Position numbers and translations under genes: made by a program. The notes below the pieces were generated by a model. The model did not search any database. It was not told the DNA's origin and saw only the letters and a program-made list of their open reading frames with translations. 49,629 nt of DNA from IMG/VR virus record IMGVR_UViG_3300008114_000084, positions 1 to 49,629 of that record; one strand, given 5' to 3'. Of the stretch, positions 22,906 through 46,849 are shown one piece after another. Origin of the DNA: a virus. How positions within the stretch are numbered: position 1 is the stretch's first letter; each line of letters opens with the position of its first letter.

Positions 22906-24549
22906 TTAAATAGCAGGTTCTGCTCCTGTTGCTTCGCCTCCAGTAGCTCCAGCTTCTGCTCCAGTAGCTCCAGCTTCTGCTCCGGTAGCTCCAGTAGCCC
23001 CGGCTTTACCTTCTTCCTCTGATTTTTTAACGTAGGATTTATTTAACTGTATATCCTCATAGTTAAGATCTAACCATCTCTCTATCATAAAATCTTGATC
23101 AAAAAATTGAACCTCTTCTTCGTTTACTGTTTCTTTTATTTCTCCCATTGCAGTAATGAAATCAATTTTTTTGATCAGTTGTTCTATTTCTCTAGATTCG
23201 CCAAATAAATTATCACTTTCAAATTTAACACCTATTTGACTTCTAAATTCAGCATCGTTTTTAAGATCTGGAAATTCTAAGCACATTTGTATCCATAGAG
23301 GTTTTACTATAATCTCTTGGAATATAGATCTCAATCTTGTTATAAATTTAGCAAATCTAACCTCATCCCTTTCTGCTCCTTCCGCCCCTGTTTTAAAAGT
23401 ATTATTTGAACCCATACCAAATCTTGAAGAGAATCTGTTATAAGGTATTTTGGAATCTTGTCTTAATTTATTATAGAAATAAACAACCGAGTCCATTATA
23501 TTTAAATTAGGACCTTGAGCATTAAGTGTTTCTACTTTTACTGATTCACCTCCTTGCTGTGGGAAAAGATAGTTTTTATAAAATTGAAGATCGGGTCTTC
23601 CGTTTATAGCTAATTCTCCTGAGCTTGTATCTAGTTTAATATCCTCTTTATATACGGACATAAGTTCTCCAAGTGTCTCTTTAGCCTTTTGAGGAGCTTT
23701 ACTTCCAATAGGAACTGTCATTTTAATCCTATACTGAGCATTCATAACATTCCATATTATTCTGGAGTGTTCCATAATCTTTAATAAGTTATAAGACCTT
23801 ATTAATCTTTCAGTGTAAGATACTCTTGAAACAACGTTGGCTTTAGCATACGAGATATAAATAACCTGAGCATCTAATAACTTTCTTTGTCTAACAGTTT
23901 CTCCGTAATACTGCCACCATATAGTTTCTCTTGTTCCGTCAGGCTTTTTTTCGATAGCTGGAGTTAAACTAACAGCATCCAATTCTTTAAAACCAACTAT
24001 TTCTTTACCATCGTTTGAATATATTATCTCGAATGCTAAAAACCCTTCTACAATTAGTTGTCTAAAGTATTGCCATCCGGTTAATCCATTTGCAAAATTG
24101 TGAAGAACATATAGTTTTCTGAAATTCTTCCTCATGGATTTTATAACATCATCCTTTAGATCCATATTCATTAAAGCTGGATGACAGAAAAAATTCTTCT
24201 CATCATATACTACTGCTTCGTCACATATGGTATCTAAAATATATTCTATCTCAGCATTTAAAGCAAAGGTTCTTAGAAAATCCCTTTTGAATGGATAATC
24301 TTTATCAAAATATGCTATGTACTTTCTGTTTGATGTGTCTTGGGCTGCTATACTATAGATAAAGTCTTCGTCGCTATCAGTAAATCCAAATCTTTCTCTC
24401 ATGCTGGCTTCAGATGCACCTATAGCCATGGAGTCTTGAATAACCATATCCTTATACTCCATTCCAAAAGACCCAAGACCACTAATAGTTTTTAATATCC
24501 TAGAGATATTCGGATTTATCTTTCCTAAATTATCTAAAAAGCCCGCCAT
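22906..24549 (-). CDS. 20: Portal protein paralogue 2 (gp20-like)
   Basis: 547 residues (T4 gp20: 524). The body shares about half its residues with the protein encoded just upstream (24553), including YIAYFDKDY, EIEYILDTICDEAVVYDEKN, VGFKELDAVSL, MEHSRIIWNVMNAQYRIKMT, VPIGSKAPQKAKETLGELMS and the RDEVRFAKFITRLRSIF helix typical of T4-type portals. Portals form the 12-mer ring through which DNA enters the head. The C-terminus is a collagen-like tail of GATGAEAGATG repeats, unusual for a portal. It follows its paralogue with 3 bases between. Whether both form one mixed ring is not known. Confidence 0.88.
   Translation of the reverse strand: MAGFLDNLGKINPNISRILKTISGLGSFGMEYKDMVIQDSMAIGASEASMRERFGFTDSDEDFIYSIAAQDTSNRKYIAYFDKDYPFKRDFLRTFALNAEIEYILDTICDEAVVYDEKNFFCHPALMNMDLKDDVIKSMRKNFRKLYVLHNFANGLTGWQYFRQLIVEGFLAFEIIYSNDGKEIVGFKELDAVSLTPAIEKKPDGTRETIWWQYYGETVRQRKLLDAQVIYISYAKANVVSRVSYTERLIRSYNLLKIMEHSRIIWNVMNAQYRIKMTVPIGSKAPQKAKETLGELMSVYKEDIKLDTSSGELAINGRPDLQFYKNYLFPQQGGESVKVETLNAQGPNLNIMDSVVYFYNKLRQDSKIPYNRFSSRFGMGSNNTFKTGAEGAERDEVRFAKFITRLRSIFQEIIVKPLWIQMCLEFPDLKNDAEFRSQIGVKFESDNLFGESREIEQLIKKIDFITAMGEIKETVNEEEVQFFDQDFMIERWLDLNYEDIQLNKSYVKKSEEEGKAGATGATGAEAGATGAEAGATGGEATGAEPAI
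22910..23005 (-). repeat. GATGAEAGATG repeat coding for the portal tail
   Basis: The plus-strand unit GCTCCAGTAGCTCCAGCTTCT is repeated about twice with flanking partial copies and encodes the Gly/Ala/Thr tail of the second portal. The related tail of the first portal is at 24556-24650. Confidence 0.65.
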
Positions 24550-24552
24550 ATT

Positions 24553-26172
24553 TTATATTGTAATTTCTCCTCCTTCAGATCCAGCTTCACCTCCTGTTGC
24601 TCCTTCAGCTCCTGTTGCTCCTGCTTCAGCTGCTGCCGCTTCTTTCTTTTTCTCTGCTGCTTTTTCTTTGAATTTTTTATTTGTAACTAAATCCTGTCCT
24701 TTCACTCCTAAAAATCTATCAACTAAAAAGTCCATATTAAAATATTTTTTACCCTCTGAGTTCATTAGGGCGGATATTTTTATAACCTGGTCTTTTCTAG
24801 CAGCTAATACCTCCATTTCTTTTGCTTCCCTAAATATATTTTCTTTTACATAATCTAAACCAAATTCAGATTTAATTATGTAATCTTTTTTAAGATGTGG
24901 AAAGTCTAAGCAGAATTGTACCCATAGTGGCTTCATTAATATCTCTTGATATATTGACCTTAATCTGTTAATAAATTTAGCAAATCTTATTTCCTCCTGA
25001 TCCAATCCTTCTGCTGTAAAAGTAATTGTTCCTTCAGATCCTGCTTCTTCTCTACCAAATCTAGTTGCTGGTATTTTAGAGTCCATTCTTAATTTATTTG
25101 CAAAATATTTAAGAACTGTTGTATCCGAAAATGCAGTTGCATCTCCTCCACCAGGAAGTGGCTGTATATCTGGAGTTCCATTAGGAGATGATGGCATTAA
25201 GTAATTTTTAAAGAATTGTATCTTCGGTTTTCCGTCGATTGTTAATTCTCCACTGCTATTATCTAATCTTATATCTTCTTTATAGATTGACATTAGCTCA
25301 CCTAATGTTTGTTTTGCTTTTTGTGGTGATCTAGTACCTATAGGAACTGTCATTGCCATCCTATATGAAGAGTTCATTACGTTCCAGATGATTCTTGTGT
25401 GCTCCATTATTCTTAGGAGATTAAATGACCGTATCATTCTTTCACAGTAACTAACTCTTGAGGATGTTCCACCTCCTTTAGCATAACTTATATAAATTAT
25501 CTGGGAGTCATATAGTTTTCTAGTCAAAGATGGGTTATCTGGATATTGTATCCATATATCAATAAAAGATCCATCCGGCTGTGCCTCTACTGTTGGTATT
25601 AGTGACCATGGATCCAATTCTTTAAATCCAACAATGTTCTTACCTTTTTTATCAAATACGATTTCAAAAGCTAGAATACCATCAACTAGAAATTTTCTGA
25701 ATAAATGCCAAGCTGATATATCTTGATTAAATCCAAAAAGATTATATACCTCTTTATACCTCTTTTGTACTTTTTCGTAAGTTTCCTCATTAACATCATC
25801 ATGTTGCATGAAAGAGAAATAAGCCCAAAAGTTTTTGTCATCATATACTATTGATTCGTCGCATATAGTATCAAGAATAAATTCTATTTCTGGATTCTGA
25901 GAAAATCCTTGTAGATAATGTCTTTTGTTTTTATAGTCCTTATCAAAATAAGCTATGTATTGTTTAGTGGTAGTATCTGCTCTTCTTAATCCAAAAAGGA
26001 AAGATTCATCCTTTATCCCTCCCTTTTGTAGAAATTGAGCTTCTGTTATACCTACTGCTTGAGAATTTTTAACTACAAGATCTTCGTAGGCCATACCGAA
26101 ACTACCCACTTTCTTTATACTATCTAAAATAGAACTAAAGAATGATTTTTTATCGTCAGTAAATCCAGCCAT
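24553..26172 (-). CDS. 20: Portal protein paralogue 1 (gp20-like)
   Basis: 539 residues. It shows the same block order as the next gene: YIAYFDKDY, EIEFILDTICDESIVYDDKN, VGFKELDPWSL, SRVSYCERMIRSFNLLRIME, VPIGTRSPQKAKQTLGELMS and EEIRFAKFINRLRSIYQEIL. All are typical of T4-type portal proteins. It also ends in a short Ala/Gly-rich tail with GATGAEGATGGEAG. The pair probably arose by tandem duplication, and both copies look intact. It starts 1 base inside the stop of the preceding gene, so the operon gp55-gp4-unknown-portal-portal is tightly packed. Confidence 0.88.
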   Translation of the reverse strand: MAGFTDDKKSFFSSILDSIKKVGSFGMAYEDLVVKNSQAVGITEAQFLQKGGIKDESFLFGLRRADTTTKQYIAYFDKDYKNKRHYLQGFSQNPEIEFILDTICDESIVYDDKNFWAYFSFMQHDDVNEETYEKVQKRYKEVYNLFGFNQDISAWHLFRKFLVDGILAFEIVFDKKGKNIVGFKELDPWSLIPTVEAQPDGSFIDIWIQYPDNPSLTRKLYDSQIIYISYAKGGGTSSRVSYCERMIRSFNLLRIMEHTRIIWNVMNSSYRMAMTVPIGTRSPQKAKQTLGELMSIYKEDIRLDNSSGELTIDGKPKIQFFKNYLMPSSPNGTPDIQPLPGGGDATAFSDTTVLKYFANKLRMDSKIPATRFGREEAGSEGTITFTAEGLDQEEIRFAKFINRLRSIYQEILMKPLWVQFCLDFPHLKKDYIIKSEFGLDYVKENIFREAKEMEVLAARKDQVIKISALMNSEGKKYFNMDFLVDRFLGVKGQDLVTNKKFKEKAAEKKKEAAAAEAGATGAEGATGGEAGSEGGEITI

Positions 26173-27252: not shown

Positions 27253-27609
27253 TTATACATTATAGTTGGAATTTTCCTCTCTTACTATTCTAGAAAAAGG
27301 AATAGTTTTCGGTGACTTAGGTGGATGTATTTTTTTCCATCCTTTTTTCATTCCATTATGTGCTATCTGGGATATAAAGGCAAAAGGATTATCAGACTTT
27401 GCTGGATCGTATCTATTCCAATACTTAACTAGATCTTCAAGACCAGATGATATGCAATCTTCTTTGTCTTCGTTATCTCTATAAGAATGTGTCTTAGACA
27501 TTCCGTTTACTATAAGAGTAAACATTTTAACGGTCTCATCAGTTAGTTGACCTTTTTCTTTACTTTCGAGGAGAGCTCTTTTTAGCTCTTTGTTTTTTAC
27601 GTATATCAT
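27253..27609 (-). CDS. 55: Late-transcription sigma factor (gp55-like)
   Basis: 118 residues; T4 gp55 has 185. YVKNKELKRALLES aligns with the T4 N-terminus (YVNNKELLQAI), then GMSKTHSYRDNEDKEDCISS with the GLSKRFNFSGY...EMIADG stretch, and NPFAFISQIAHNGMKKGWKK with [20 protein letters not shown], the sigma region-2-like part that reads the late promoter. The T4 C-terminal acidic tail (clamp-binding) is largely missing here. It should direct host RNA polymerase to late promoters, plausibly the GGATATATA elements of this window. Its ATG overlaps the stop of the -1 frame at 27606. Confidence 0.88.
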   Translation of the reverse strand: MIYVKNKELKRALLESKEKGQLTDETVKMFTLIVNGMSKTHSYRDNEDKEDCISSGLEDLVKYWNRYDPAKSDNPFAFISQIAHNGMKKGWKKIHPPKSPKTIPFSRIVREENSNYNV

Positions 27610-27860
27610 TCTTCTTGCGGTGGAATATTATTTTGGAGCTTTTCTATTTGTTTTTCTAAATTAACCCTTAATTCTTCCAAATTTTTCCTCGAATTTCTAA
27701 TTGTGTCTATACCTATCTTACCATTTTCTTCACTAGAAGTTTCTAATTCTTTTATTTTTTCTAGACAATTTTTCAAATCGTCTAAAACAAAATTGAGTCT
27801 GTTACCAATTCCCTCATCCGGGTCATTAGCAACAGACTCATTTATTCCTTTTGTATTTAC
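27606..27860 (-). CDS. -1 frameshift extension: coiled-coil C-terminal domain of the 778-residue protein
   Basis: An 84-codon open frame lies between 27860 and the TGA at 27606-27608. Its product (from VNTKGINESVANDPDEGIGN to the end QNNIPPQEE) is a charged, heptad-rich helical sequence. It has no ATG or GTG; the first usable start would be a TTG 29 codons in. The frame begins exactly at the stop of the upstream gene, after A AAA AAG (the dnaX-type -1 slippery heptamer), and its TGA overlaps the gp55 ATG as ATGA, as real coupled genes do. Read as a -1 frameshift, it extends the upstream protein from 778 to 862 residues. A missing A in the A9 run is the alternative. Confidence 0.75.
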   Translation of the reverse strand, partial: VNTKGINESVANDPDEGIGNRLNFVLDDLKNCLEKIKELETSSEENGKIGIDTIRNSRKNLEELRVNLEKQIEKLQNNIPPQEE

Positions 27861-30193
27861 TTTTTTTTTGTTTTTGGAGCGGAAGAAAAATTAGACACTT
27901 TGTCATTTTCAGCAAATCTTCTTCCATTTTTTTTGCTGTTTCCGTGTGCATCAGCAAAATTAAAATCGTCCTCGTCTTCCATGAATTTTTTAGACTTTTC
28001 AGATTTTCCTTTAGGAGCTTTCTCTACGTGAGAATTTTTTTGACTCTCCTTAAGTGTAGCTAGATTCATGTTTTTAAGATCCTGTATAAATTTAGAAGAT
28101 CCTTTAATAGAAGCGCTAGGAGCTTTAGCTAAATCTAGATTATCTAGACTATCTATAAACTTTTTACCACTTCCGCCTTTTCCTTTGCTAGGAAGATCTG
28201 CCATATTAGCAGATTTTGATTTAACACCTCTACCAGTTAAAGGTGCTGATTTACCACTCTTTGGTAAACCTGCCATAGTTCCTTTTTCGTTGTTTATAAA
28301 CTTAGAAGAAGATCCTGTTTTTTTATCTGGTGCTTGAGCCATGTGTTTTTTAGAAAGATTCTCTATTCTAGAATCTTTGTGTGATCCTCCTCTGTTTCCT
28401 GGAGCATTAGCAAAATTCTGATTTGATTCATTAGCAAAATCCTCAGTATATTCGATATCTAACTGAGGTGCTTTAATATCATATCTGTCTATTTCGTCAT
28501 CCAGATCTTCAACATCAGAGAAGAAGTATTCTCCTGTTTTACCCTCTTTAAAAAGAATAGTATAAGTTTTAGAGCTTCCGTCTACTCCAATAACTCTTCC
28601 TTTAACCCCATTTCTTTTTATTCTAACCTCAGTATCAATAGGATATCCAAGGTCTTCATTCATTGAAGGAAGTTCTTTAGCTTTACTTTCAAATCTAGAA
28701 ATCTCTAGATTAATTTGATTCCATCTATCTTTTAGGGATTCGATCTCGTTTTCGATGCTTTCTTCTAGAGTTACAAGTTCATCAGATTTAGCGATAAGAG
28801 GGTTTTCTTTTTTAGCAACATCCAATTTTCTTAGTTCGCCTTCTAATACATCGATATTTTTGATAATCTCTTTTTTATCATTCTTCATTATACTCAAGAA
28901 TGCTTGTTCTCCTTCTAAAAATTCTGTAAGAGATTCAGTGATATCATATTTAATGAAGTCTTTAACTATATTGATAGCTTGAGTTGCATTAGCTTCGTAG
29001 ATTTTATTTAATCTCATAGCTGGATTAACTGTTTGTACATAAATACCAGCTTCTGTTTTAAATATATTAGCCTCTACGTTTTCAAAAACTCTAGATTTTA
29101 TTTTTTTACCAAAATCAAGATCTATAATTTCCTCAGCATTACTAGCTACAAATACTGCTTTAGCTATTTTGTGGTTTGAACTTTCTAAAAGATTGTTTGT
29201 ACTTACACTAACTGCAAGTGGAAGATCATCTTCGTTAATTCTTTTTCCGTCAAAATAAACCTCCTTAGATTCGTTTGTAAATACTATCTCTACCTTATTA
29301 TTTCCAATATTTAATGATATCTTATTGTTATCTATTTTAACGTCTCTATCGCTTATAATTTGAGCCTGATCAGCTAGTTCTTGTGGAACTTCATCCATGC
29401 TACATTCTTGAATAACTTGTGTGTTCTGATCTATCTTTAAAAATTTACCAGAGGAGTAAAATACTGTCTCTTCATTTTCGTTTAAATAGATAGGTGAATA
29501 AAGATTGCTTATTTCACAAACGTTATTATCAAATCCAACATTGAATTTTCCTGTATTTTCATTTTCGTATATAGATAAGAAACTAACAAGATTTCTAACC
29601 ATTGGATTAAATCCAAATCTTTTAAGGCCATGAACAAGAGATTCAGTTGATTTAGTTTCTGAAACTAACCATCCTTTCATTTGATCTGTAGCATCGGAAA
29701 ATAAATCCCTTCCTGGACTATTTCTCATAGTTTCGTAAGTCTTAATAACCTCAATCTCTCTTTTTCTGTTTTCCAATATTCTATTTAAGTTCTCTAGAAC
29801 TGGAGTTACTGCATTTTCCCAGGAAAACGATTTAAGATCGTTTATAAATCCTTCAATTACAAATGATTCAGATATTCCTTTTCCAACCAATATATGATCA
29901 TATTTTTCTAACATAATCTTACCAGCTGGTATCTCATTTAAAGTTGAATTTTTTAAAGCCGAAACTGTATTTATTAGACCAAAGCTAAAAGAAATACCTT
30001 TATTAGAAGGTCTAGATGAAGAACCATGTGATTGTGATTCCTTAAGCATTTGAGCAGTTGAGCCTCCAAGGAAAGTAGAAGCAACAGGTTTTTTTGTTGC
30101 CCCTAAACCTGCCCAATCTCTTAATGAATCTGCAGCATTCTTAGAAGTCTCCATATTTAATCTGTTGATTTCTGGATTAATATTTTTTTCCAT
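27857..30193 (-). CDS. Large structural protein with repeated A-x-A-P/K-F motifs, ends at slippery site
   Basis: 778 residues, family not recognised. After a Ser/Gly-rich N-terminus, residues ~70-420 form a mixed domain, ~430-510 a coiled coil, and ~515-570 an SH3/KOW-like barrel (DTEVRIKRNGVKGRVIGVDG, YTILFKEGKTGEYFF). Residues 593-778 are a low-complexity basic tail holding about nine copies of a short motif (NFANAP, HMAQAP, TMAGLP, NMADLP, DLAKAP, NFADAH, NFSSAP), alternating with SKFI/KKFI/RRFA elements. The tail stops at TAA directly after the A9-G run. A GGATATATA element lies 20 nt upstream. A virion or prohead-core role is inferred from the late-type promoter and position. Confidence 0.7.
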   Translation of the reverse strand: MEKNINPEINRLNMETSKNAADSLRDWAGLGATKKPVASTFLGGSTAQMLKESQSHGSSSRPSNKGISFSFGLINTVSALKNSTLNEIPAGKIMLEKYDHILVGKGISESFVIEGFINDLKSFSWENAVTPVLENLNRILENRKREIEVIKTYETMRNSPGRDLFSDATDQMKGWLVSETKSTESLVHGLKRFGFNPMVRNLVSFLSIYENENTGKFNVGFDNNVCEISNLYSPIYLNENEETVFYSSGKFLKIDQNTQVIQECSMDEVPQELADQAQIISDRDVKIDNNKISLNIGNNKVEIVFTNESKEVYFDGKRINEDDLPLAVSVSTNNLLESSNHKIAKAVFVASNAEEIIDLDFGKKIKSRVFENVEANIFKTEAGIYVQTVNPAMRLNKIYEANATQAINIVKDFIKYDITESLTEFLEGEQAFLSIMKNDKKEIIKNIDVLEGELRKLDVAKKENPLIAKSDELVTLEESIENEIESLKDRWNQINLEISRFESKAKELPSMNEDLGYPIDTEVRIKRNGVKGRVIGVDGSSKTYTILFKEGKTGEYFFSDVEDLDDEIDRYDIKAPQLDIEYTEDFANESNQNFANAPGNRGGSHKDSRIENLSKKHMAQAPDKKTGSSSKFINNEKGTMAGLPKSGKSAPLTGRGVKSKSANMADLPSKGKGGSGKKFIDSLDNLDLAKAPSASIKGSSKFIQDLKNMNLATLKESQKNSHVEKAPKGKSEKSKKFMEDEDDFNFADAHGNSKKNGRRFAENDKVSNFSSAPKTKKK

Positions 30194-37439: not shown

Positions 37440-38063
37440 TCAATCATTAAAAGTCAAATTAACACCAGGAAACATATCCCTAACTTTTAATCTCGCTCTT
37501 CTAATTCTTGTAGCAATGGCTCTTTTCTTCATACCATACTTATCTGCTATTTCCTGATATTTCATTCTAAGGATCTCCCTATCAAATAATATATCTTTGT
37601 ATATTTCTGGGAGATCATTCATTCTTTCTATAACATTGTCGTATAAATCCTCCATTTCGTCATTTTCTACAGAAATAAAATCGAAATCAGATTCGAATGT
37701 TACCGAGGATCTTCTTATTGATGCTGTATTATATTCTTCAGAGTCATCATTATTTTTTACTACCTCTTGTATAATAGGCATGTATCTGTCCTCGTTCTTT
37801 TTTATAACTAATGATTCGTTTTTAGCTATATTATAGATCCACGTGGAAAAGTTCCCTCTTGCTGAATCATATTGGGATATCTTTGTCCATATTTTAGCCA
37901 TTGTATTAGACACTGCATCTTCTGCCGATTCTTGCTCTATTAATATAGATCTACAATGTTTTAATAACCCCGGTTTAATTCTTTTATATAATTCAACAAA
38001 ATCTTTCTCTGATGATGTTCTCATAAAACTTTCTGCCAATTCCTGAATATTCTTTGCCGCCAT
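37440..38063 (-). CDS. ECF-type sigma-70 family factor
   Basis: 207 residues, typical ECF size. Region 2 is FVELYKRIKPGLLKHCRSIL, then AEDAVSNTMAKIWTKISQYD and GNFSTWIYNIAKNE, with the F-x-T-W-l-x-x-I-A-x-N signature. A ~60-residue acidic linker follows. Region 4 is LPEIYKDILFDREILRMKYQ then EIADKYGMKKRAIATRIRRARLKV, an HTH for -35 reading. It would steer host RNA polymerase to a second class of promoters, distinct from gp55 late promoters. ECF sigmas are not part of the T4 set, so it was probably acquired from a bacterium; ECF factors are abundant in Bacteroidota. Confidence 0.88.
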   Translation of the reverse strand: MAAKNIQELAESFMRTSSEKDFVELYKRIKPGLLKHCRSILIEQESAEDAVSNTMAKIWTKISQYDSARGNFSTWIYNIAKNESLVIKKNEDRYMPIIQEVVKNNDDSEEYNTASIRRSSVTFESDFDFISVENDEMEDLYDNVIERMNDLPEIYKDILFDREILRMKYQEIADKYGMKKRAIATRIRRARLKVRDMFPGVNLTFND

Positions 38064-42243: not shown

Positions 42244-42822
42244 TTAGTTAAAAATGTCCTCGAAATAGTCAGCTCTAAAAGATAAAGCTATCTTATAAGG
42301 TGTTGTACCGTTAGTGTAATCAAGATCTAAAGCTTTTATTTGATCTACTGGGAAGCAATTAATTAGTTTAACTCTTCTAAATACGTCACCTTGCTTATTA
42401 AATACAGATATTAAAATATAAGTTCCTCCTGCATAAGTAGATTTTATACCAGTAGCACCAGTTAAAGGATTGTAAATAAGATCCGACCACTGTCTAAGTG
42501 TTTTAAACACATAGTTACTGTTATTATCATTAAGGTTAGTCTCAAATTCAATTCTTACTTTAACCCCTGTATCATCAACTGCACCTGCAGCATATCTTCT
42601 TTTAGAGAACTTATATCTTTGTTCTGCTATACCTGGGTTTTTATCAACTGCTAAACCAGCAACAGATAAAACGTTTTCAACCAACAAGCTTCTTCCGTTG
42701 TTCCCTTGCTCTAGTGCAACTCCAGCGGGTGGTTGAATAATAACCTCAAACTGATTAAGGTATACCGGTTCGTATAATTGTACCGCTGCTTTTGACGATG
42801 TAAAATGTGGTAATCCTGCCAT
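42244..42822 (-). CDS. 19: Tail tube protein paralogue 2 (gp19-like)
   Basis: 192 residues (T4 gp19: 163). It begins MAGLPHFTSSKAAVQLYEPV and YLNQFEVIIQPP, nearly the same as the gene upstream, and shares QWSDLIYNPLTGA, NKQGDVFRR and the C-terminal A-DYF-D-D/E-IFN. The N/QFEV strand, IYNPLTG loop and final FRADYFEDIF fit T4-type tail tube proteins, which stack as hexamer rings inside the sheath. TATAAATA, the exact T4 late-promoter sequence, lies 8 nt before the ATG but may be just part of an AT-rich leader. Confidence 0.9.
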   Translation of the reverse strand: MAGLPHFTSSKAAVQLYEPVYLNQFEVIIQPPAGVALEQGNNGRSLLVENVLSVAGLAVDKNPGIAEQRYKFSKRRYAAGAVDDTGVKVRIEFETNLNDNNSNYVFKTLRQWSDLIYNPLTGATGIKSTYAGGTYILISVFNKQGDVFRRVKLINCFPVDQIKALDLDYTNGTTPYKIALSFRADYFEDIFN

Positions 42823-42833
42823 TTTTTAATTAT

Positions 42834-43406
42834 TTATATAAATATATCATCGAAATAGTCAACTGCCCATTGCATAGTCAATTTGTAAATTGATGTTTGT
42901 GTATAGTTTAGACCCATTTCAGTGATAGGAGACATAGGGAAACAATCTCTAAGATTAATTTTTCTGAAAATATCACCTTGCTTGTTAAAAACATTTATTA
43001 ATATATTTCCTGTGTAATCCTTTTTAAGACCCATTGCACCCGTTAAAGGATTATAAATAAGATCAGACCATTGACGAAGAACTTTAAATACGTACATAGA
43101 ATTGCTGTCATTAAGGTTAACCTCAAATTCTATATCAACATCTAAACCAGTTCTTTGAGGAGCTGCACCAGCGTAATATCTTTTAGCAAATTTATATTGC
43201 TGTGTGATTTCCGTTGGTGTCTGATCTACCTGTAATCCAGAAACTCTAGTTACTTGCTCAAGCAATATATTAGAACTCTGAGGGTTTCCCTGTGGAGTAG
43301 ATATACCTGTTGGCGGAGTAATCTGTACTTCGAATTGGTTAAGAAAAACCGGTTCGTATTTATTAACTGACGCCTTGGAGCTTGTATAATGTGGTAATCC
43401 TGCCAT
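42834..43406 (-). CDS. 19: Tail tube protein paralogue 1 (gp19-like)
   Basis: 190 residues. MAGLPHYTSSKASVNKYEPV and FLNQFEVQITPP open the protein; YVFKVLRQWSDLIYNPLTGA, NVFNKQGDIFRKINL and WAVDYFDDIFI follow. It is about 55-60% identical to the next gene by eye, with conserved length, so both are likely functional. The leader GATAAATATATAAAATAAAAAT lacks Shine-Dalgarno. Each could form part of the main tube, or one could be a distal or initiator ring protein (as T4 gp54 or gp48 are); sequence does not decide. Confidence 0.9.
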   Translation of the reverse strand: MAGLPHYTSSKASVNKYEPVFLNQFEVQITPPTGISTPQGNPQSSNILLEQVTRVSGLQVDQTPTEITQQYKFAKRYYAGAAPQRTGLDVDIEFEVNLNDSNSMYVFKVLRQWSDLIYNPLTGAMGLKKDYTGNILINVFNKQGDIFRKINLRDCFPMSPITEMGLNYTQTSIYKLTMQWAVDYFDDIFI

Positions 43407-43450: not shown

Positions 43451-46400
43451 TTAACTAAATTGGATGAATCCTCCAGAAGCTATACCTCCTGTTCTAGTAA
43501 CCGTCATTCTATTAATGAATTTATGAATACCTCTTGCTGGTTCGATTATAACATCGATGATTCCGATGTTCTGATCTATAATAGCAGGTGTATTATTAGA
43601 AGAATCCATAATAGTTAAGAAGTTATAAATACCGCCTACTGATCTTACTCCTGATAAGTAGTTATCAACTAGAGTTTTAATCTCAAGTCTTACGTTATCT
43701 TCGTTGAAATCAAATACGTAGTTTGATAGTATATCCTCTACTGCACTTTCTACAGTAATTAATAAGTCTCTTACGTGTAGGTTATTAAATGCAGAGTTTG
43801 TTCTTTGGTAGCTTGTTTGGTTACCGTATATTACTATACCAACGCCTCTTTTACGAATAATAGGGTTAATTCCGAAAGGCTCTAAGAATTCTCTATCTTG
43901 AATATCAAAATCATATTCAAGACCAACTAGATTACCAGCTGATATAATACCTCTCTTAAGACCTGCCACGATAGAATAAGGTTCTCCAGTAATGAACTTA
44001 CGTATAAAGTTGTTAGAAACGTAAGGAGATGGCGGAACGTTTAGATTCTTATTGTTTTCTCTGATTGTTAAGAAAGGAGCAAAGAATCCTGAGAATTTAG
44101 CACCTAGATCTTCATCAGGTAAAGAGAAAGTAAATGAAGGATTTAAACTTAAATTACCTCCATCTGCAATATATCTAGCTTGTAAAAGTGGAGCTGGATC
44201 TGTTGCAGTAGGTGCAGAAGTAAATCTAGGATCAATAGATTCAGAGAACTTCTTCATTGAAGGTAAGTTACAGATTGCTAAACATTTTTGTCTGTTTTTA
44301 GCAAGTTTAGTAAGTTGGTATTTACAGTTTGGCTGTATACCTCCGTCAAATGTATCTACGATGTATCTGAATGTTATTACGTCAGTATCAGCTAATGTTC
44401 TAGCAAGATTTGTATTGTATAAAACATCTAGAATCTCATTCATTCTTGTATCTGTTCCGTTAGGCATAGAAGCAGCTTTAATATCAGAACCAGGAAGATA
44501 AGTAAAGTTGAACGTTTTAACAAATTCTTGGATATTCTTAAACTTCCAAACTCTTGTTGTAGTACCAGGATAAAGTTTAATAGGTCTTTCAGTTTTAACC
44601 TGTACTGTGTAAAGTCCAGGAGAAGACGCAGAAGCTACGGTTTTAACCTCCAATACTCTTGTTAATCTTGATTGTAGATTTTCAGTCAAAGGATTATCGT
44701 ATATCTGAACATCCGTTGATACTAATAGATCTCCAACTTTTATCTTAGAAGCTGTTGCTTCAGCAGTACTCAATTCTATAATATTAGGTTGTAACTGTGT
44801 TATGATATCTACGAAATCACTAATATTACCAGCAGTTGAAACTATGTTAAAGCTTTCTCCTGATGCTTGGTTAGCTCCTATAGGTAAAGAACTAATATAA
44901 GTAGAATCCCAAGTAGCAATAGATTCAGGTGTTGAGAATGTATCGTCAGCATAAGCTCTACAAACTAGGATATTGTACCCGTCTCTATCTACATTTACCT
45001 CAAATTTTAAATATTGTAATAAAGTACCTGTATCATCTTTCCAGTCAATGTCGCCATCGCCTATATTCCCTTTAACCCAGTCTCTATACATAGCAGAGTT
45101 CTCGTAAGCTAAATAGCTATCCAATCCTACTGGAATATCTGGTGAGAAGTATACGTCATCATTATCAAAGTAATCAGGATTACCTATTTGGTAAGCTGAA
45201 ACTGAACTCTTATTTGTTATATCATAAGGTTCAACATATGTTGTAGATGCAGTAGAACCAATTAGTGGGTGGTTAAGTCTTAATCTCAACTGCTGCTTAA
45301 GTCCAACAGGTAAAGTGTTATTTGTTATAAATTTATTCTCTACTACTCTTAATTTAACAAGATCACCCTCATAGAATCCTAAATATCCAGGAGTTGGGAG
45401 ATTAGAAGTAACCTTACCAACTACCCATTTTACTGCTGGTGCATTGCTAGAAGTATCTAGGAAACTTTCTAGTGTTGTTATTTGATCGTCATGTAATGTT
45501 GGAGACGTAAATAATGTATCTAGATAAATTGCTCCGCCATCTCTAGCAGTAGGATTATAAGTGTCCCATAATGTTGTAGGGATACCTGCATCACCAGTTG
45601 TATTGTATAAAATATCCTCTATAAGAGTACCAGTTTCAGGAAGAATATCCATACCAGGACCAGGAGAAACAGCATCCTGTAACTCAGTTCCTCCAGTAGA
45701 ACCTGCTAAATTCTTATAGTAAGTATAATCAGCAAATAAATTTTGGCTATAAGATAAGAAATTAAGGTTCTTAGGAATAGCTGTGATATCTGCATCAGGA
45801 CCTATTTCGTCTACTATATGGTGACCAACTAAGTCAAAAACTGATGAGTTATCTAATAGATCGTCTAAAGCTTCCTCATTAACAGCACAGAATATACCAG
45901 TTGTAGCTGTTTGATTATTAATTAGAGTCTGGATGTATCTTAATGTACCGTTTTGGTCTGTAAAGTTAGGTATAATTGTACCAGTAGTAGTTAGAACTAT
46001 ATTAACTCCATTAAGAGATAAGAAATTATCTATTTGAGATTTAATAAACCCTTTAGATGTAAAATATTGACTGTAAACTGGGTCGTTAGCTAAAGCTTGA
46101 TAATCCGTCCAGTTTCCACTTACAACTATAACATCTACAAACCAATCTGAAAGATAATCATATTGATTCATGTAAGATGGAACGTTATCCGATCCAAAAT
46201 ATTCTCTAGCTGTAATATCAAATCCTTTTAAAGGGAATTTAGAATCTAGAGATTTTCTTACTATGATACTTACAGGATTTTGCCCAAGATTAACTAAGCT
46301 AAATAATTTTCTAGAATCTGGTTGAGATCCAGAATTATCCTCAGTTGCTAAGAAATATGTCGTATCTGGGAACCAAAATTTCTCCTTATTGTAGTATGAA

Positions 46401-46849
46401 GATAATAATTTATCCTGTTTTGTTAGTGGATCTGAGTACCCTCCTGTCGCATTAGCTCCGTTTTGCTCCTCAGTGTCCATAGAGAAAGCTCTATATCTAG
46501 CTACATCAGCTCCTGCAGAATATTCAGGATCCCCATTTTCATCAACAGAATTATTTAATAATCTTAGATTTAGTGCAAAGATAGGTCCGCTCTGAAGACA
46601 TACTAAAGAAGATCTGTGGAAAAATGATCCTTTTTTCTCTAAAGCCTTATCTATACCGCCAAATACAGATTGGAATGTCGTGATATCTGGACAATAAACC
46701 GGGGTATTGAAGTTACCAATATTAGAATAACCAACTACCAATCTAATCGTAGAAGGATTTATAATAATGTTTTCACTAGCATCAAATTCTAAAGTATAAA
46801 CCCCAGATGCTTTAAATTGGGATAAATCAAGTTTGACTTGTCTTGCCAT
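43451..46849 (-). CDS. 18: Contractile tail sheath protein (gp18-like), greatly enlarged
   Basis: 1132 residues against 659 in T4. The N-terminus (VYTLEFDASENIIINPSTIR, LVVGYSNIGNFNTPVYCPD) is that of the family, and the C-terminal ~150 residues (GINPIIRKRGVGIVIYGNQT, LHVRDLLITVESAVEDILSN, then DVIIEPARGIHKFINRMTVT) form the conserved sheath core with the interlocking C-terminal arm. The ~450 additional residues lie between, so extra surface domains are expected. The sheath contracts to drive the tube into the cell. Leader GAATATAAAATAAAATTTAAAA, no Shine-Dalgarno. Confidence 0.93.
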   Translation of the reverse strand: MARQVKLDLSQFKASGVYTLEFDASENIIINPSTIRLVVGYSNIGNFNTPVYCPDITTFQSVFGGIDKALEKKGSFFHRSSLVCLQSGPIFALNLRLLNNSVDENGDPEYSAGADVARYRAFSMDTEEQNGANATGGYSDPLTKQDKLLSSYYNKEKFWFPDTTYFLATEDNSGSQPDSRKLFSLVNLGQNPVSIIVRKSLDSKFPLKGFDITAREYFGSDNVPSYMNQYDYLSDWFVDVIVVSGNWTDYQALANDPVYSQYFTSKGFIKSQIDNFLSLNGVNIVLTTTGTIIPNFTDQNGTLRYIQTLINNQTATTGIFCAVNEEALDDLLDNSSVFDLVGHHIVDEIGPDADITAIPKNLNFLSYSQNLFADYTYYKNLAGSTGGTELQDAVSPGPGMDILPETGTLIEDILYNTTGDAGIPTTLWDTYNPTARDGGAIYLDTLFTSPTLHDDQITTLESFLDTSSNAPAVKWVVGKVTSNLPTPGYLGFYEGDLVKLRVVENKFITNNTLPVGLKQQLRLRLNHPLIGSTASTTYVEPYDITNKSSVSAYQIGNPDYFDNDDVYFSPDIPVGLDSYLAYENSAMYRDWVKGNIGDGDIDWKDDTGTLLQYLKFEVNVDRDGYNILVCRAYADDTFSTPESIATWDSTYISSLPIGANQASGESFNIVSTAGNISDFVDIITQLQPNIIELSTAEATASKIKVGDLLVSTDVQIYDNPLTENLQSRLTRVLEVKTVASASSPGLYTVQVKTERPIKLYPGTTTRVWKFKNIQEFVKTFNFTYLPGSDIKAASMPNGTDTRMNEILDVLYNTNLARTLADTDVITFRYIVDTFDGGIQPNCKYQLTKLAKNRQKCLAICNLPSMKKFSESIDPRFTSAPTATDPAPLLQARYIADGGNLSLNPSFTFSLPDEDLGAKFSGFFAPFLTIRENNKNLNVPPSPYVSNNFIRKFITGEPYSIVAGLKRGIISAGNLVGLEYDFDIQDREFLEPFGINPIIRKRGVGIVIYGNQTSYQRTNSAFNNLHVRDLLITVESAVEDILSNYVFDFNEDNVRLEIKTLVDNYLSGVRSVGGIYNFLTIMDSSNNTPAIIDQNIGIIDVIIEPARGIHKFINRMTVTRTGGIASGGFIQFS

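Follow-up and report, generated by a model that had tools for sequence, protein, structure and literature searches.

Slippage is already known to add C-terminal extensions to proteins. Shigella spa13 is the closest parallel in layout to the locus described here; its slippage, according to the passage on this gene, adds a 112-aa C-terminal extension that overlaps the start of the next gene and affects the expression of that gene (PMC5009743). For Thermus thermophilus dnaX, the relevant passages describe nine As on the sense strand, nearby stop codons and products of two lengths (PMC5009743, PMC1088944). Bacterial RNA polymerase is stated there to slip efficiently on nine As or Ts (PMC5009743), and an avoidance of A/T runs that is evident from a length of nine in many bacteria is described in passages of a genome survey, in which this pattern was sought and found for transcriptional slippage (PMC1088944). 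On the translational side, excerpts describe the A_AAA_AAG sites for −1 shifts in E. coli dnaX and in insertion sequence (IS) elements (PMC4066793), as well as the tail-assembly chaperones G/GT of lambda and other phages, where a −1 shift adds a C-terminal part to a small share of the product (PMC5009743). Here we analyze a 49,629-nt stretch of viral DNA (IMG/VR record IMGVR_UViG_3300008114_000084, positions 1 to 49,629; hereafter the window), in which a 778-codon gene ends in a run of nine As (A9) and a stop codon, and is followed in the −1 frame by an open extension of 84 codons that reaches the gene for the late sigma factor homologue gp55. We read the run as a programmed slip site used mainly by RNA polymerase, and give this reading a probability of roughly 0.55.

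The gene occupies positions 27857-30193 of the minus strand, and its 3' end reads ACA AAA AAA AAG TAA. The A9 run (27861-27869, minus strand, read from 27869 down) lies in the phase A-AAA-AAA-AA(G), contains both A_AAA_AAA and A_AAA_AAG, and is followed by a G at 27860; the 0-frame stop TAA (27857-27859, minus strand) abuts the slip site. The −1 frame extension (27606-27860, minus strand) comprises 84 sense codons, from GTA at 27860 through GAA ending at 27609, and a TGA that overlaps the ATG of gp55 (27609) as ATGA. The window's extension frame contains no ATG or GTG, and its first TTG comes 83 nt after the first base of the 0-frame stop. The gp55 homologue itself (27253-27609, minus strand) matches phrog_234 with an E-value of 1.9e-16. 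An earlier note on this DNA, made from the sequence alone, had described this gene end, the open −1 frame with its ATGA junction and a long form of 862 residues (778 + 84); its coordinates and lengths are correct, and the features can be read directly in the sequence.

To place the junction among relatives, IMG/VR was scanned with the protein and with profiles of both the protein and the extension. The middle part of the gene was found at 256 loci, 250 of which show the gene end; as many loci are the same contig fetched repeatedly, rows were collapsed before counting, which left 54 junctions distinct over 290 nt. Forty-seven of these carry the slip site (the window's own is L002) and seven do not. 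The extension was matched 118 times, including three matches cut by a contig end, and 16 GenBank phage records were matched, of which three were examined. In a set of 26 relatives, the most divergent ones that still bear the extension are 37% identical to the window protein.

None of the nine As varies among the 47 distinct slip-site junctions. The run is A9 in 46 of them and A10 in one, where the base behind the nine As is a further A and the reading frame is unaltered. A stop follows directly (TAA in 45, TAG in two), and the extension is always in the −1 frame, so that the search of related phages proposed earlier gave the same answer in 47/47 cases. The codon ahead of the lysine codons is ACA in 32 junctions, TCA in 10, GCA in four and AGA in one, its last base thus being A in every case regardless of the residue encoded. 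The first two lysine codons are AAA throughout, and the last codon is AAG (44), AAC (2) or AAA (1). A run of at least nine As in coding sequence, as expected of transcriptional slippage, is therefore conserved in every distinct junction, and an in-frame heptamer of the X_XXY_YYZ type, as expected of ribosomal frameshifting, is present too. The A9 run, and not the A6G heptamer alone, is the conserved unit of these alignments.

Long A-runs are prone to sequencing error, and such an error, or a misassembly of the run in a gene that truly has one frame, would be the most trivial explanation. None of the distinct junctions has fused frames in the DNA, and no relative with a fusing run length was found, the run being A9 or the frame-keeping A10 in all 47. 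The earlier suspicion that a tenth A in the true genome might join the two frames is thus not borne out; we regard an error as having a negligible probability, and the comparison of sequences confirms that the observation is real.

The seven distinct relatives without the extension (L049, L050, L051, L070, L145, L147 and L193) also lack the A9 run, and none of these run-less relatives has an intact extension. Four of them (L070, L145, L147 and L193) belong to the same group as the extension-bearing sequences; the other three are far relatives from GenBank phage records (two Lak phages and LR756500). Behind the gene of L070 we found a clear relic of the extension, with an alignment score of 97 against at most 60 in 60 shuffles and at most 56 for other segments of its locus, and behind that of L147 a weaker one, which scores 58 where shuffles reach no more than 49 and other segments no more than 54; for L145 and L193 a relic is not supported, their scores of 35 and 37 lying within the range of the shuffles, which were mononucleotide throughout. 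In a quick tree of the gene minus its tail plus gp55, which has long end branches for L051, L147 and L061 and in which L070 fills 34% of the columns, three changes of state are needed; L070 is nested among the extension-bearing sequences (support 94), whose clade has L147 as its sister. From the two relics, the tree and the absence of the extension from run-less relatives, it follows that run and extension were co-kept and co-lost. The comparison thus supports a joint retention and a joint loss of run, stop and extension, and likewise selection for two products. On the same basis, recoding of some kind very probably occurs at this site, which uncultured T4-like phages keep in this uncharacterised gene across sequences sharing about 40% protein identity, with natural losses serving as controls.

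Two further explanations would dispense with recoding. The first takes the extension for a separate small gene with an unusual start or with reinitiation after the TAA. An ATG in L010 and L142 and a TTG in L055 and L062 shortly after the stop would suit it, as would the near-cognate codons (e.g., ATA and ATT) present in the examined stretch of all 47 sequences. However, 43 of the 47 have no ATG, GTG or TTG in the interval from the upstream in-frame stop to +36 nt, ahead of the conserved part, and the other four have theirs at differing places. In no relative found does the extension form a gene of its own with a conserved start, the other outcome that the earlier note had named as fatal to its proposal. 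A separate gene would also leave the fixation of A9 and its co-loss with the extension without a reason, and we consider it improbable.

The second holds that the −1 frame is kept only for the hairpin and other signals carried by the DNA and that the extension is not protein. Several codons at the hairpin and T-tract described below are indeed fixed at synonymous sites, which is suggestive only, since Gly column 52 and others are equally fixed. Past the hairpin, however, the protein is conserved and third positions vary most. Over the whole set of 47 sequences the pairwise differences at codon positions 3, 1 and 2 amount to 36708, 29527 and 19595, invariant Leu, Ser and Gly residues (columns 44, 48 and 55) carry synonymous changes, and the length of the extension is held at 78-85 codons. 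We therefore think this explanation very improbable. The extension includes a conserved LETSS/LETTS stretch, and AlphaFold predicts two helices (residues 20-48 and 53-79) at moderate confidence (predicted local distance difference test, pLDDT, 73); the added helical domain of 84 residues expected from composition is accordingly modelled as a two-helix hairpin. No PHROGs family was found for the extension. Among solved structures, its best sequence match is a stretch of ClpB (E 0.005, above the default cut-off), and the best hit in a fold search with the model has an E-value of 0.33.

An RNA hairpin is predicted within the extension frame (27794-27840, minus strand; arms 27840-27825 and 27809-27794, loop of 15 nt), with a T-rich tract, ATTTTGTTTT (27784-27793, minus strand), on its 3' side; together they resemble an intrinsic terminator. 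The window hairpin was read from the row L002, whose junction sequence is identical to that of the window. When no motif is imposed, the best stem starts 13-25 nt after the stop in 46/47 junctions, which places it 16-28 nt behind the slip codon; L004 is the exception, with a different stem scoring higher, and the same arms are present there by eye. A stem with a T-tract reaches p≤0.01 (200 dinucleotide shuffles) in 45/47 junctions and in all four extension-less relatives of the group, the two misses being L018, with a 31-nt loop beyond the limit of the script, and L004, where the other stem was picked. In register, 413 of 423 cells pair, compared with 152-161 when the arms are slid, although the arms were located by motifs favouring pairs 0-5 (six of the nine pairs), which lean to pairing by construction. 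Among the pairs not favoured by the motifs, pair 6 is formed in 47/47 (G-C 35, A-U 9, G-U 3) and pair −1 in 45/47 (U-A 29, A-U 16); pair 7 is formed in 39/47. The stem sequence differs by main clade (TGAGTCTG/CAGACTCA versus AGAGTTCG/CGAACTCT). An Rfam search returned nothing at the gathering score.

In the run-less relatives L070, L145, L147 and L193, a stem with a T-tract of other sequence stands 18-21 nt behind the gene; none was found in the three far relatives. Because these four extension-less relatives keep hairpin and T-tract at the same place, we read the hairpin as a terminator: a stem with a T-rich tract stands behind the gene, and the unit is a putative intrinsic terminator of the gene, overprinted by the extension and placed ahead of gp55. 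In L145 and L193, a further inverted repeat is visible by eye before gp55.

The avoidance of homopolymers in other genes was assessed in 507 other open reading frames (ORFs) of three related records, the gene itself being excluded, with expected run counts taken from synonymous-codon shuffles. Runs of at least nine As occur 4 times versus 45.1 expected and are low in all three phases; runs of at least nine Ts occur 0 times versus 7.5 expected. Runs of eight As are about halved (45 versus 84 expected), and neither runs of exactly 5, 6 or 7 As nor G/C runs of at least 5 are depleted. Each record taken alone shows the deficit of runs of at least nine As (2-3 versus 14-18 expected). In the window, a single sense-strand run of at least nine As, the slip site, is present in 44 minus-strand ORFs versus 6.3 expected; the A9 run stands out because the window's other genes avoid such runs. 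An avoidance of long runs elsewhere in coding sequence and in every frame is as expected for transcriptional slippage, and replication slippage could do likewise. Together with the fixation of all nine As, this avoidance favours slippage of RNA polymerase with one added A.

The main alternative is programmed −1 ribosomal frameshifting on A_AAA_AAA or A_AAA_AAG before the stop, with the hairpin perhaps acting as a distant stimulator. Ribosomal frameshift sites are commonly stimulated by an upstream Shine-Dalgarno (SD)-like element and/or a structure a few nt downstream. The heptamer A_AAA_AAA is in phase in 47/47 junctions and A_AAA_AAG in 44/47, and the downstream hairpin is well paired. On the other side, the hairpin stands 16-28 nt after the slip codon, beyond the usual few nt, and a hairpin and T-tract occupy the same place in the four relatives of the group that lack any slip site. 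SD-like words occur in the 23 nt upstream of the slip site in 9/47 junctions, no more commonly than the 20% background, and the window's gene starts avoid SD words (1/36 versus 20%). The G of the heptamer is replaced in 3/47 junctions (C in two, A in one), and the first A of the run is fixed. A classical stimulator hairpin of the dnaX type was set aside as improbable on the grounds of its distance and of the counterparts in relatives without the site; the hairpin lies rather far from the slip site and is too independent of it for a role in stimulating frameshifts to be probable. Bypassing during translation, of the kind known from T4 gene 60, was also considered and rejected, as the spacers viewed share no matching landing codon.

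Several observations weigh against slippage by the polymerase or against parts of that reading. The heptamer A6G is itself avoided in the phase A_AAA_AAG (36 versus 56.1 expected) and not in the other two phases (129 versus 99.7 and 38 versus 31.0), and with longer runs included both A_AAA_AAG and A_AAA_AAA are below expectation in all three records. Such frame-specific avoidance of A_AAA_AAG is also reported for E. coli in a passage of PMC4066793, and ribosomes of the host therefore probably slip there too. The record G004, which holds a copy of the 778-codon gene at 99% identity, carries a tRNA-Lys(UUU) gene, and the sole tRNA-Lys in E. coli is held to make the site shift-prone, in the words of one source passage (PMC5009743). 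A tandem of A_AAA_AAA and A_AAA_AAG would likewise require nine As, and the fixed nine As alone thus do not decide the mechanism. Run avoidance may also stem from replication slippage or hypermutability of runs, as one passage points out (PMC1088944), and runs of at least nine are present in four other ORFs (L281, L297, L301 and L302). Directly behind the slip site, the excess of changes at third codon positions is weak (6169, 5363 and 5278 differences at positions 3, 1 and 2). As for the terminator, many members have long hairpin loops, of up to 31 nt, three of the tails contain only 4 Ts in 10, and a standard terminator scan (loops 3-8) does not list the hairpin. On balance, we regard ribosomal frameshifting as a serious but less probable explanation than polymerase slippage. 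Of the earlier proposal of a −1 shift at a dnaX-type heptamer, the programmed shift is upheld by the comparison, whereas the ribosomal, heptamer-based mechanism is not, the conserved unit being A9 and SD-like words showing no excess.

Further copies of CAAAAAAAAAG were noticed in related records. In G003 (L297:9893-11485, minus strand), a 531-codon ORF has one that starts some 20 nt ahead of its end and could be a second slip site; more such places occur outside the listed ORFs of G001 and G003.

According to the polymerase-slippage reading, translation of the unslipped message would stop at the TAA after A9 and yield 778 aa. Slippage at A9 would lead to reading one frame back and to the gain of the 84-residue helical hairpin, for a product of 862 aa. 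The slip would be made mainly by RNA polymerase, which would add one A and produce a ten-A message that ordinary translation reads into the extension; −1 slippage of ribosomes on this run may contribute. The downstream hairpin and T-tract would terminate transcription of the gene, and the extension would run over this terminator. As judged from the models, the extension may let part of the protein self-associate or dock via a coiled coil that would cap a flexible tail. It can be further speculated, though we consider it unlikely, that slippage is coupled to antitermination, with the extension translated solely by ribosomes on slipped or shifted messages and these ribosomes unfolding the terminator and thereby letting a set fraction of transcription into gp55. 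If this were true, one A9 site would set the doses of both the extended protein and the late sigma factor. However, gp55 cannot depend on such antitermination in general, because the four extension-less relatives keep the hairpin with gp55 behind it. Since the extension overlaps a terminator-like hairpin before a late sigma gene, a regulatory coupling lends itself to direct testing. A candidate promoter word near gp55, TTGGAAACTT, is not supported; it has three matches in the pieces of three related records.

The 0-frame product of 778 aa (27857-30193, minus strand) is modelled with a helical N-terminal part and a mixed alpha/beta middle, at a pLDDT of 67 and a predicted template modelling score of 0.40, with 253 residues under 50. 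The model contains a long coiled coil (residues about 419-503) and an SH3/Tudor-like barrel (residues about 514-570), followed by a low-confidence tail (residues 618-778 and most of 568-617). Tudor/KOW-type domains can be aligned to the barrel with a best Z of 8.6 over 55 residues; this arrangement is common and does not indicate function. The model matches uncharacterised phage proteins, e.g., of Tenacibaculum phage PTm1 (E 1e-15), with TM-scores under 0.5, and has no match in the PDB at E 0.001. Sequence searches with the protein, which the earlier note took to be probably structural, gave no PHROG family, Pfam family or solved structure above threshold; Pfam gave one sub-threshold spectrin-like match (E 0.005), and a pattern scan of genome_contigs returned 26 matches with no relative among them. 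The tail (27860-28492, minus strand) carries seven copies of a short [LFM][ASE]x[AL][PHQ] motif, and similar motifs are present in aligned relatives. The idea that these repeats are prohead-protease sites is not supported: the strict motif occurs in no other open stretch of at least 80 aa of G004, which is a partial test, as the capsid protein is not among the identified genes.

The genes around the locus are of T4 type and encode gp55, a head closure protein, a DNA end protector and portal proteins; a fibre-like gene adjoins as well. By terminase or gp55, phages of Tenacibaculum, Flavobacterium, Prevotella and Chryseobacterium are among the nearest named ones, beside cyanophages and others. 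These four genera belong to the Bacteroidota, and the host is likely a member of this phylum. Two different T4-type portal (gp20) genes stand in tandem (22906-24549 and 24553-26172, minus strand; 547 and 539 aa), both matching PF07230 and phrog_213 at E-values of about 1e-58 to 1e-60; to our knowledge, two adjacent portal genes would be unusual. Two tandem tail-tube-like genes (42244-42822 and 42834-43406, minus strand), both phrog_32623, are adjoined by a tail sheath gene of 1132 aa (43451-46849), and a second sigma-factor-like gene besides gp55 (phrog_1740, 207 aa) is found at 37440-38063 on the minus strand. In the related record G001, a transfer-messenger RNA gene that encodes a tag peptide of its own is present (L283:42-466), and the same piece carries 13 tRNA genes.

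The tail-assembly chaperone gene G/GT sits between the tail tube and tape measure genes. Although the 778-aa gene would share with G/GT the addition of a C-terminal part by a −1 shift, it has neither this position nor any recognized relatedness, its neighbours being gp55 and head genes and its protein matching no PHROG family. With E. coli dnaX and the IS elements the locus shares the A_AAA_AAG heptamer, and it differs from them in that A9 is the conserved unit, SD-like words show no excess, and the hairpin is farther away and also found in relatives without the site. It resembles T. thermophilus dnaX in its nine sense-strand As, nearby stops and two proposed product lengths; however, the templated run length gives the long form there, whereas slipping would give it here, and T. 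thermophilus dnaX is a replication gene with no suggested protein relationship. Within phages, the passage on Campylobacter phage CPt10_0091 likewise reports a poly-adenosine tract with suggested slippage (PMC2853527), but the tract lies in a methyltransferase gene with a frameshift mutation, and that passage gives no comparative evidence for a programmed second product. Beyond this suggestion, the results listed by searches of a literature collection that lacks most subscription papers contained neither a case of programmed RNA polymerase slippage in tailed phages nor a report of the present site; should the polymerase indeed make the slip, the locus would be a well-supported case. Like spa13, it has an extension that overlaps the start of the next gene. 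Unlike spa13, where slippage occurs after 58 codons of a bacterial secretion gene, it would slip at the last sense codon, and the spa13 passage mentions no terminator inside the extension (PMC5009743). New here, compared with these systems, are the gene itself, how deeply the site is conserved, its natural losses, and the way in which the extension frame runs over a terminator-like hairpin before a late sigma gene.

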